In this document: positions 19,329-50,117 of the stretch, one piece after another
How positions within the stretch are numbered: the first letter of the stretch is position 1
Layout: every line of letters begins with the position of its first letter
NCBI GenBank assembly: GCA_024643725.1
Contig: JAHEMJ010000013.1
Location: 201,556 to 265,555 of the forward strand
From: Crocinitomicaceae bacterium
GTDB taxonomy: Bacteria > Bacteroidota > Bacteroidia > Flavobacteriales_D > Crocinitomicaceae
Direction of reading: 5' to 3'
DNA: 64,000 bases
Program-made: the position numbers and the translations under genes
Notes under the pieces: generated by a model
What the model was told of the DNA's origin: nothing
The model's database searches: none
The model's input: the letters and a program-made list of their open reading frames with translations, nothing else

Positions 19329-19600
19329 GTAAATTCGTTTAAGTTTATTCAAACCTACCTCTATTCCTCCTAGCGCTAAAACTGATTTCAACTTGTGAAA
19401 ATTTAGGAATTGTGATATTCGCAAATGGAAGTGATAAATTATTAAATCAGAAAATAATTAATATTCAAAAAACAAATGAATTAATGGCGTTTAGTTAAAG
19501 CTTTTTCGAAACAATTATTTTTTTAATCAATCTAAAATGGTAAGCTTTCCCCTTAAGCTAATACGCAATAAATCAAAAAGCTTCAAACTATTTACAACCT

Positions 19601-19834
19601 TTAAAAATGCCGTTTCGCAAACGCTCTTCCAGATCCTGACTTTAAGTATTTCTCGAATTCAAATGCTTTGTATTTATCATTGAAAGCAACATACATTTCT
19701 AACTCAACTGGAAGTTTATCTTTCGTTGAAAACACAAATCCTTTCGAGTGTCGATCCAATCTTTTATTTAGGTTACTTGTACAGCCCGTATATGGACTAC
19801 CATTGGAACACCTTAGTTGATAAACAAAATACAT
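19601..19834 (-). CDS. GIY-YIG domain protein (YhbQ/UvrC-type single domain)
   Basis: The 77-residue protein has the GIY-YIG layout: 'MYFVYQLRCSNGSPYTGCTSNLNKRLDRH', a linker and 'KAFEFEKYLKSGSGRAFAKRHF'. The first motif is FVY and the second YTG, both usual in small flavobacterial members. The conserved Arg of 'NKRL' and Glu of 'FEFEKYLK' are present. The length is normal for the single-domain family (about 80-90 residues). Biological roles in this family are poorly defined. It lies next to the tandem repeats and a pseudogene, but nothing shows that it is mobile. Confidence 0.85.
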   Translation of the reverse strand: MYFVYQLRCSNGSPYTGCTSNLNKRLDRHSKGFVFSTKDKLPVELEMYVAFNDKYKAFEFEKYLKSGSGRAFAKRHF

Positions 19835-19900
19835 GTCCAGTAAACGAAAAATTCAAGAAATTATTTCACCAAAACTTTGGATGGACCTGAAGTAATTTCG

Positions 19901-20247
19901 CCTTCGTTTTTGATACTCAAATTACCTTGTTACCAAAGTGGACGGGTCCGCCGTAGCTCGCCGATTCAACAAAGAATTAAAATTCAATAATGGGTTAAAA
20001 AAAAGCTCGCCTTCGTTTTTGATACTCAAATTACCTTGTTGCCAAAGTGGACGGGTCCGCCGTAGCTCGCCGATTCAACAAAGAATTAAAATTCAATAAT
20101 GGGTTAAAAAAAAGCTCGCCTTCGTTTTTGATACTCAAATTACCTTGTTACCAAAGTGGACGGGTCCGCCGTAGCTCGCCGATTCAACACAGAATTAAAA
20201 TTCAATAATGGGTTAAAAAAAAGCTCGCCTTCGTTTTTGATACTCAA
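19901..20247. repeat. Three tandem 109-bp repeats plus a partial fourth
   Basis: The anchor CCTTCGTTTTTGATACTCAAA recurs at 19901, 20010, 20119 and 20228, each 109 bp apart. Three units are complete (19901-20227), and the fourth is partial and runs into the tmRNA terminator. The units are nearly identical; I see only single-base differences (G for A near 20041, C for A near 20190). Each unit carries the T-tract and 3' arm of that terminator but not its 5' arm. High identity implies recent amplification. Confidence 0.9.
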
Positions 20248-20261
20248 AAACTTCGGCGAGC
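20215..20261 (-). terminator. Rho-independent terminator of tmRNA
   Basis: On the minus strand GCTCGCC pairs with GGCGAGC (7 bp), then a three-base symmetric mismatch, then GTTTTTG pairs with CAAAAAC around loop AGTAT. A run of eight T follows (20215-20222). It starts only three bases after the tmRNA 3' end. Confidence 0.85.
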
Positions 20262-20264
20262 GAA

Positions 20265-20665
20265 GGTGGAGCCGGAGGGGTTCGAACCCTCGTCCAAACG
20301 ACGAGTTTTCAAGCTTTCTACATGCTTATTCCTCGGTTGATTTTCGATTCAGGCACGGACAAGAACACCCAAAACCTGAACTTAGGTACTGAAATTCGCA
20401 TTTGCTTAGTACCATCGCAAACACTAGCCTAATGGGATGAACTTTCGGGTGGTAAATCGATTAGGCGACGATCTACCGAAAGTACTTGTCCAACCTACTG
20501 TGCTTCAGTCGGATTAAGCCAATTAACATTCAGCTAATTAAGCAGCAAGTGCGTATGACGTATTGTCAATTATTGTTCGTGACAAGATATTTAAGAGGTT
20601 CACCACAACCCTCTGCATGCTGACACTTGACTACCGCTATCGCTGTCAAATCCAAGGTCGGCCCC
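20265..20665 (-). ncRNA. ssrA: Transfer-messenger RNA (tmRNA)
   Basis: The minus-strand 5' end GGGGCCGACCTTGGATTTGA (from 20665) pairs with the 3' end CGGCTCC to make the alanyl acceptor stem, including the G3-U pair used by alanyl-tRNA synthetase. The T-arm with TTCGAAC lies near the 3' end (about 20276-20292). After discriminator A the template reads CCT, so the final A of CCA is added after transcription. An internal tag frame ends in codons for YALAA and a stop. The length of about 400 bases is normal for a one-piece tmRNA. It rescues stalled ribosomes with SmpB. Confidence 0.97.
20538..20567 (-). other. tmRNA tag reading frame, probably DNTSYALAA
   Basis: On the minus strand GAC AAT ACG TCA TAC GCA CTT GCT GCT is followed by TAA. 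The final YALAA matches the protease recognition end of known tags. The resume codon is inferred as GAC; the exact start of the tag is uncertain because the upstream frame is open for further codons. Confidence 0.7.
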
Positions 20666-48674: not shown

Positions 48675-50117
48675 TTAATGACTCGCCACGTACTTTCTGT
48701 ATTCCATTTTGTTGGAATCAAAAGTCATCAGTTTGGCAAGTGCTGTTGCATTCTCACGATCTAACAAACGATCTGACAAGAATTTTGCGACTTCCAATTT
48801 ATTTTCATCGTATGTATACAATTCTACAATTTTCCCTGCTTGATCCGTTGTAAGGCACGTTGCTTTCAAGGCCAATTTCACTGCTTCGACACGATCATCT
48901 TCAAAACTTTGGTCTTTCAATTCTTCCAGGAATGTTGGCAAATTATTCAAGGTGCGATTGCAAGAAATCAACGCTCCAGATGTATTTACGTTCGTTTGCG
49001 TATTGACTTGATTCTGTTGTGCATTCGTTTGATAATTGACGTTCCCACCTGAGTTGGTAGTCGTCGTGGTGGTGGTAGTGGTAATTGTTGTTTGTCCAGT
49101 CGTTTGCTGCGTATTCATTCCATTCGCATTCACGTTCATCTGAACATTCCCATTGTTTCCATAGGTGTTTTGCGTTTGCATGCCGTTCGCATTGACATTC
49201 ATGTTGATGTTGGCGTTATTGGACGGAGTCACCGATTGATTCGTTCCCGTTGCATTGACATTCATGTTTACAGTAGCGTTTGGATTCACTTGCTGTTGTT
49301 CCATTCCAGTCGTATTCACATTCATGTTCACACCCATATTTCCACTTTGCATGTTGGGATCCATTCCTGAAACATTGATACTGATTCCCACATTGCCATT
49401 TTGCATCGTCGGATCCATACCATTTCCAGAAACATTCATGTTCATATTCACATTTCCATTTTGTGTGGATTGCGTTTGATTCATGCCATTTGCATTCACG
49501 TTCACATTCATCCCGACATTTCCTGTCTGCGTTGTTTGCGTTTGATTCATGCCACCTGCATTGACATTCATGTTCACATTCGCATTTGGATTGGACGTTT
49601 GTTGATTCATGCCATTTGCATTCACGTTCATCGTCACATTACCATTTGTAGGTGTTTGGACATTGGTATTAGTGTTCGCGTTGGTCGTTTGCGTAGTCGT
49701 GGTTTGTACTGTAGTGGTTTGAACCACTGCATCTGAGTAAACCGCAGTATCTGTCGGACGATAAACAACGGCACTTGGATTGATCACTCCTGCCGTAGGC
49801 ACGATGCTCACCAACTGTAATTTTCCCACTCCTTTTTTAAAGACAATGCGTGTGGTAATATCGCTTGGCTCGTCCATGAAAAAGTTTTTATTCACATCCG
49901 GCGTCTTCCCGTCAGCGAAAATAATCTTCAATGAATACCCGCCATTCTTGATTCCTGCAATGTACACATTTGTTTGTGGCTGGGAATTTTGTTTAATCCC
50001 ATTCAAAATCGCATAGAACTGTTGTCCACCATTATTAAAAATGGTCAAGTTGCTTTGAGCAATGGAAATCACGCTCATAAAAGCAAATAAAACACTTGTA
50101 ATCAATTTCATAATCAT
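48675..50117 (-). CDS. Exported DUF4476 protein with Asn-rich repeat region
   Basis: I start at 50117 ('MIMKLITSVLFAFMSVISIA'), since the longer frame uses TTG; an ATG six bases later is equally possible. The signal peptide leads to a beta domain ('NLTIFNNGGQQFYAILNGIK' to about residue 115). A Thr/Gln/Asn-rich linker and about nine units of 'NVNMNVNANGMNQ' type follow (about 160-342). The C-terminal 95 residues are DUF4476 ('LEELKDQSFEDDRVEAVKLA' and 'SDRLLDRENATALAKLMTFD'). Functions in the family are unknown. The repeat region is probably a disordered surface or periplasmic spacer. Confidence 0.87.
   Translation of the reverse strand: MIMKLITSVLFAFMSVISIAQSNLTIFNNGGQQFYAILNGIKQNSQPQTNVYIAGIKNGGYSLKIIFADGKTPDVNKNFFMDEPSDITTRIVFKKGVGKLQLVSIVPTAGVINPSAVVYRPTDTAVYSDAVVQTTTVQTTTTQTTNANTNTNVQTPTNGNVTMNVNANGMNQQTSNPNANVNMNVNAGGMNQTQTTQTGNVGMNVNVNANGMNQTQSTQNGNVNMNMNVSGNGMDPTMQNGNVGISINVSGMDPNMQSGNMGVNMNVNTTGMEQQQVNPNATVNMNVNATGTNQSVTPSNNANINMNVNANGMQTQNTYGNNGNVQMNVNANGMNTQQTTGQTTITTTTTTTTTNSGGNVNYQTNAQQNQVNTQTNVNTSGALISCNRTLNNLPTFLEELKDQSFEDDRVEAVKLALKATCLTTDQAGKIVELYTYDENKLEVAKFLSDRLLDRENATALAKLMTFDSNKMEYRKYVASH
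49092..49640 (-). repeat. About nine degenerate in-frame Asn-rich repeats of 18-22 codons
   Basis: Units of the pattern N-V-x-M-N-V-N-x-x-G-M-x followed by a short Gln/Thr stretch repeat about nine times, with unequal lengths (about 54-66 bp). The bases are Thr/Asn/Gln-codon rich. The copies are degenerate but clearly related. Confidence 0.8.

Follow-up and report, generated by a model that had tools for sequence, protein, structure and literature searches.

A tandem array at the ssrA 3' end of a Crocinitomicaceae bacterium as the probable expanded end of a small GIY-YIG nuclease element

What produced a 109-bp tandem array directly behind the tmRNA gene of a Crocinitomicaceae bacterium, and what is the array part of? 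The window, by which we mean the whole stretch of 64,000 nucleotides analysed here, carries ssrA on the reverse strand at 20265..20665 (ARAGORN, tag DNTSYALAA; Rfam RF00023, E 3.2e-50), and the further features of the locus follow it on that strand, at lower coordinates. The initial annotation described three units and a partial fourth, and so it proved: TRF reports a repeat of period 109 with 3.2 copies, 98% matches and a score of 688 at 19898..20248, and the units, counted from the tmRNA, measure 110, 109 and 109 nt plus a 53-nt partial. Each opens with TCCAC, and they differ at two sites within their common part. The array occupies a single place in the genome, which disposes of a dispersed-repeat reading. 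Another tandem repeat, of period 60-66 and about 70% alike, lies elsewhere in the window at 49432..49647.

The breakpoints of the array fall inside two hairpins. Directly behind the tmRNA stands a terminator-like stem-loop, hairpin A (20223..20261), followed by eight T residues at 20215..20222. Its loop and 3' side make up a 24-bp core, of which there are four copies, with starts at 19898, 20007, 20116 and 20225. The complete hairpin is found only beside the tmRNA and its matching 5' arm in no other copy, as the initial annotation had recognised. That annotation also had the array start from the ssrA 3' end, which stands in general terms, with the correction that the exact repeat start lies in the loop of hairpin A and not at the gene end. 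The array ends inside hairpin B (19890..19928, AAGGTAATTT..AAATTACTT), which contains the last copy of the core. Each full unit also holds a small hairpin of the form R'-loop-R, at 20156..20170 in unit 1 (GGCGGA-CCCG-TCCAC), 20047..20061 in unit 2 and 19938..19952 in unit 3; the arms of the first agree with the last 6 nt of the tmRNA gene at 10 of 12 positions. The gene itself ends in CTCCACC followed by TTCG, so that CCA is not encoded, as is usual in the genus, and CTCCACC also forms the left boundary of the element proposed below. A known RNA family inside the array can be set aside, only the tmRNA scoring above the Rfam gathering score in the window, and the RNA fold of the whole array is weak (z only -1.8) and was left unused as evidence.

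Directly behind the array on its strand lies a gene about which the initial annotation was silent. It is an intergenic open reading frame at 19601..19834 with an ATG start and no internal stop, encoding a 77-aa single-domain GIY-YIG nuclease (PF01541, E 3e-13, covering residues 1-69). Behind it, at 19539..19583, is an eroded right end resembling the motif that precedes an intact tmRNA 3'-end copy in a relative from the same genus, G077 (0 of 1000 shuffles score as high). We suspect, with a probability of roughly 0.7, that the array is the expanded left end of an element of about 0.7 kb, of homing type and selfish-looking, seated at the 3' end of ssrA. Sequence comparison is the source for its anatomy, its linkage to RNA genes, the RNA-end copies, the target-fitting arms, the array breakpoints and the similar arrays found elsewhere.

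GIY-YIG annotations near tRNAs occur in databases and provide a lead. Forty-one genomes of the genus were searched for PF01541, and 31 short-ORF matches were examined, two more from a G014:C13 array being omitted. Seven of the 31 are genes that we take to be YhbQ-like; no tRNA or tmRNA gene was found in their loci, two of which had merely 85 and 282 bp upstream. Nor was one found within about 1.5 kb of 17 long GIY-YIG proteins, so that these controls combined give a linkage of 0/24. Among the remaining 24 short-ORF genes, 17 follow a tRNA or tmRNA gene on their own strand, three had less than 260 bp upstream, and four (L062, L068, L086 and L099) have no same-strand upstream RNA gene, the first of these having a tmRNA on the opposite strand. 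A 16-gene profile run over 199 genomes of the order gave matches at E 1e-8 or better in 104. We examined 109 of these matches, 23 in 23 loci (7 of 30 having already been sampled) and 86 on 80 regions taken in list order, a sample that omits matches further down the list, those already sampled and one at a contig start. Dropped before counting were the seven YhbQ-like genes, identical gene sequences, the two short matches of the G014:C13 array and genes with less than 500 bp upstream (less than 700 bp for the named records described below, from which the viral L293 was also removed).

On this basis 27 of 32 distinct matches in the genus, and 53 of 80 in other genera of the order, have a same-strand RNA gene no more than 500 bp upstream. 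Counting either side, again on the same strand, brings the latter figure to 62/80, 9 of the 27 matches that lack an RNA gene upstream having one within 500 bp downstream. At 96 matches the upstream sequence extends for 1400 bp or more; the nearest RNA gene is within 500 bp at 69 of them and 500-1000 bp away at 5, with none at 1000-1400 bp, and an RNA gene on the opposite strand within 500 bp was found at 0/96. The RNA types at the 81 linked matches (of 113 before de-duplication) are Met 13, Phe, tmRNA and Asn 10 each, Asp 8, Ala and Val 7 each, Arg 6, Leu and Pro 4 each, and His and Ser 1 each. Named genomes were searched with the tmRNA-type subfamily, and the best 80 of at least 535 relatives, mostly from Bacteroidota with ten Patescibacteria by title and one Rickettsiales MAG, were retained. 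A same-strand RNA gene lies within 700 bp upstream in 56 of the 67 records with at least 700 bp there (tmRNA 26, Ser 17, Ala 6, Val, Met and Trp 2 each, Glu 1). Rfam finds a tmRNA missed by ARAGORN in two of the 11 unlinked records, and in seven others inspection by eye reveals what is left of an RNA 3' terminus, with CCACC at its end and TTCGC after it; of the last two, L274 is masked and L219 was left out of the reading by eye. As a rule, then, the family appears to be tied to tRNA and tmRNA genes and to sit behind them on their strand. In a poorly resolved tree of the subfamily (78 columns) the RNA types are partly clustered, with 20 changes against a shuffled mean of 29.6, and a single clade of all tmRNA-linked proteins is rejected (p 0.002). 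Joining the window's clade to the main tmRNA clade of its own order is not clearly rejected (p 0.052), nor is a single clade of Patescibacteria (p 0.16); with only the single tmRNA-linked clade rejected, we make no case from the tree for horizontal transfer, including that between phyla.

The loci share an order of parts. The left end runs from the RNA 3' terminus (R, for example TCCACC) through TTCG and hairpin A, the terminator, to a spacer, the R'-loop-R hairpin, hairpin B and the gene. The arms of the small hairpin tend to track the RNA gene in front of them, reading GGYGGA..TCCAC at tmRNA and Ala, GGCGGA..TCCGC at Ser, GGCGGG..CCCGC at Trp and GGCAGC..GCTGC at Glu, with a poorer fit at Met and Val. 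Over 65 spacers the arms score 682 against their own RNA ends, compared with 619 (sd 7.8) when permuted, a value reached in 0 of 2000 permutations that leave relatedness in, and the RNA type of the locus is top or tied in 55 of the 65. A second copy of the 3' part of the same RNA lies behind the gene at 45 of 81 loci, as against 0/81 in the reverse complement and 132/5856 with RNA types swapped. Of these copies, 41 lie outside any ARAGORN-predicted gene, and the other four overlap the prediction of an adjacent tRNA, which in two cases is a tRNA-Arg located behind a Pro-linked gene. Only one of the ten tmRNA-linked loci, that of G077, passes this second-copy test. In the window the right-hand copy is unrecognisable, and what is left is the eroded relative of the motif that precedes the copy in G077.

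Palindromes such as TCCGCCGCGGCGGA interrupt some RNA-end copies and pseudo-tRNA ends. That sequence occurs 10 times in the window's genome (G000), 23 times in G014, 29 in G077, 20 in G132, 4 in G101, once each in G003 and G036 and not at all in G038, with 0 in a backward-read control. At L011, L016 and L033 the tmRNA is followed by 3'-end copies with a palindrome-like insert in the T-arm. At L100/L056 (G014:C13:112506-113259) a tRNA-Phe is followed by whole elements in tandem, each a GIY-YIG gene with a pseudo-tRNA end, in 329-bp steps; two are alike and the third is truncated. A unit of about 150 bp in which no gene was seen stands at tmRNA 3' ends at L026, L034, L037, L038, L049, L195 and L004; it reads TCTGAT..AAAAGC..GCTTTTTGATCCACTGCACGTTAG or similar, followed in most cases by an RNA-end copy, and may derive from the element by loss of the gene.

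The protein offers some guidance to what the element might do. The window gene stands outside any intron or intein: it is an open reading frame of its own, and the tmRNA is, as stated, the one Rfam family in the window. A protein search of its genome returns only the gene itself, the two other PF01541 matches there being long proteins, and a 16-row alignment in which the window protein is one row has 8 invariant columns. For an ortholog in G109 (78 aa, 61% identical to the window protein) the predicted structure, with a mean pLDDT of 81.6, is a single-domain GIY-YIG fold like that of UPF0213/YhbQ. Foldseek gives this model 1zg2 (UPF0213) as its best PDB match, at E 6e-5 and alone under 0.001, followed by Slx1 structures with E-values of 0.06-0.16 and probability near 1 (6seh at 0.056, 4xlg at 0.083). 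Known GIY-YIG homing enzymes have a separate DNA-binding part besides the catalytic domain. The window protein shows nothing beyond that domain (77 aa, Pfam match 1-69), which leaves target choice unaccounted for in a homing model. Slx1 is a structure-specific nuclease acting on branched DNA, and given the resemblance of the model to UPF0213 and then Slx1, the enzyme may recognise the structure of DNA. A phage or plasmid origin was set aside, the window protein having no match in phage or plasmid collections; viral contigs hold one relative, 51% identical, with no tRNA found there.

The same predicted fold, near UPF0213 and by weak E-values Slx1, would also suit a host factor for RNA processing or repair, co-expressed with the tRNA genes behind which it sits on the same strand, in which case the repeats would be by-products. 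A patchy distribution speaks against such a role: in the first genus set the gene is present at 3 of 23 tmRNA loci (three of these loci breaking off behind the tmRNA where the contig ends), the tmRNA of G007 has no such gene despite a shared helicase gene downstream, and broken gene copies occur in the family. RNA-end copies and hairpins fitted to the target would not be expected of it either, and we regard it as quite improbable.

The homing-type element that we favour should leave signs of insertion at RNA 3' ends, which are well-known hot spots for insertion in bacteria, usually put down to integrases. Copies of the tmRNA 3' end are present in G077 and G035. In G035 an extra small unit separates the tmRNA from a 17-nt copy of its end, AACCCCTCCGGCTCCAC, and behind that copy comes a near-match to the sequence that directly follows the tmRNA in G000, G014 and G077. 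Among exact 3'-anchored copies of at least 12 nt (33 loci), 20 begin 0-6 nt after the start of the T-loop TTC, a clustering that is only a hint of where a break might fall, as mismatches and T-loop palindromes also set the starts. An acceptor-stem change of the tmRNA (C-G versus T-A in G000, G014, G035 and G077) was left unused as representing one lineage; the occupied tmRNAs of G193, from the same genus, and of G144, G120 and G101 have the other form. The suggestion in the initial annotation that the ssrA 3' end is a hot spot for inserted sequence is upheld. Its further proposal, that an island or prophage of integrase type once attached here, fares badly. tmRNA genes are classic attachment sites, and relatives do carry copies of the tmRNA 3' end. 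The search that it called for, an integrase gene near ssrA, found three PF00589 matches in the genome (one below the cut-off) and none on the window's contig, C10, and the lack of a tyrosine-recombinase match there disfavours this reading. The gene linked to the site is instead a GIY-YIG nuclease, and many tRNA types show the same layout, so that we consider an integrase origin very unlikely.

How might a one-gene element of this kind come to lie behind so many RNA genes? On the reading that we prefer, its parts would run from the RNA gene through hairpin A, a spacer and a hairpin in which the final 6 nt of the RNA gene recur in both inverted and direct form to hairpin B, the GIY-YIG gene and a second RNA 3'-end copy, of which the window retains only an eroded trace. 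We infer that the element acts like a free-standing homing endonuclease. The nuclease would break an unoccupied tRNA or tmRNA gene near the T-loop, and repair off an occupied chromosome would bring in the element together with a functional RNA 3' half, the former 3' end persisting as a pseudo-copy; the RNA-end copies would serve as homology arms. Against this model, the working RNA gene retains its T-loop, and self-protection is unaccounted for. The 109-bp array would have formed later, through unequal exchange between the 24-bp cores of hairpins A and B or a switch of template from one to the other, perhaps set off by the nuclease or by the hairpins themselves. Because the two hairpins have the core in common, exchange between them adds 109-bp steps.

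Arrays of this sort are infrequent and recurrent. TRF finds repeats of any kind, some of short period, in 11 of 143 distinct spacers, and those of period 100-175 in seven, the window included. They include Marivirga aurantiaca (107 x 4.2), Bacteroidales UBA6267 (109 x 2.2), Sediminibacterium goheungense at a tRNA-Ser (175 x 2.2) and a Chitinophagaceae MAG (103 x 1.9). Six arrays, that of the window among them, were examined for their starting point, which always falls within hairpin A, be it the loop (window, L279 and L287), the 5' arm (L243 and L289) or the 3' arm (L247). The 5' arm of later copies is different in L279, as it is in the window, and partly lost in L243. Inspection by eye adds G161 and G135, each with two copies of which the second contains a palindrome-like insert, and G144, with two to three copies. 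Within the genus, G014, G035, G077 and G193, the four other genomes found to have the gene behind the tmRNA, show at most one intact R'-loop-R hairpin, three of them carrying a decayed copy; copy number thus differs among relatives, in keeping with the earlier surmise of a recent change in it.

The same element could nevertheless owe its array to nothing more than slippage in replication or RecA exchange involving the hairpin cores, with a nuclease that takes no part and may be dead cargo. Hairpins, together with direct repeats some 20-25 bp long that bound the array (in the window, L243 and L287), would suffice for this, and 132 of the 143 spacers have no TRF repeat. The recurrence of arrays at the same place in other genera tells against it, as does the example of SegB, a neighbouring GIY-YIG enzyme able to drive such amplification (PMC13096335). 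We give this account close to an even chance. A slippage event private to this genome, which the initial annotation had held in reserve, fits poorly with arrays of similar period that start inside the same hairpin in other genera.

Returning to the homing-type element, one attractive extension is that these loci form a class of their own among mobile elements, minimal in size (under 1 kb) and with one nuclease gene of 77-110 aa. Such elements would use portable RNA 3' ends as homology arms to home from one genome to another when the RNA gene is all that the two have in common, the end hairpin being rewritten for each target and the nuclease driving tandem expansion of the left end. We hold this fuller proposal tentatively, at somewhat less than even odds. 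Whatever its fate, an element a few hundred bases long, with a nuclease as its one gene, seems to occupy places of the integrase type in Bacteroidota and some Patescibacteria, and it may account for many small GIY-YIG genes, pseudo-tRNA ends and local repeats. If its mobility is real, the element would be among the smallest mobile elements with an enzyme of their own, and a compact system for asking how a nuclease that lacks a DNA-binding domain finds its target and whether it makes tandem repeats.

Several known systems invite comparison. Integrase elements use tRNA and tmRNA genes as attachment sites, and like the element considered here they insert at the RNA 3' end and are accompanied by a second copy of that end; unlike them, the present element is about 0.7 kb long with one nuclease gene, on a contig without an integrase. 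UPF0213/YhbQ proteins are alike in size and fold (1zg2), whereas the seven YhbQ-like genes of the genus stand apart from RNA genes. Slx1, similar in predicted fold, cuts branched DNA of a kind that the hairpin-rich ends of the element could offer; unlike for Slx1, neither a partner protein nor a further domain was seen, and function is here a prediction. In CPR bacteria (Patescibacteria), GIY-YIG genes are described from rRNA-gene insertions resembling neither intron group (PMC11270868, in its main text, from which the words tRNA and tmRNA are absent); those insertions lie inside the rRNA genes, in contrast to the window's family. The literature searched, with preprints and most subscription papers outside its scope, yielded no description of elements like the present one. 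A close likeness is to SegB of the T-even phages, a GIY-YIG enzyme encoded beside tRNA genes that drives tandem amplification via homologous recombination (PMC13096335). Unlike SegB, the proteins of the present family have about 77-110 aa with little beyond the catalytic domain, are known from sequence, and are encoded on bacterial chromosomes, as a rule behind an RNA gene on its strand, together with copies of the RNA 3' end and hairpins that fit the target. What the two appear to have in common is an intron-free GIY-YIG gene adjoining tRNA genes and a tandemly repeated neighbourhood, which in the case of SegB is amplified by recombination.
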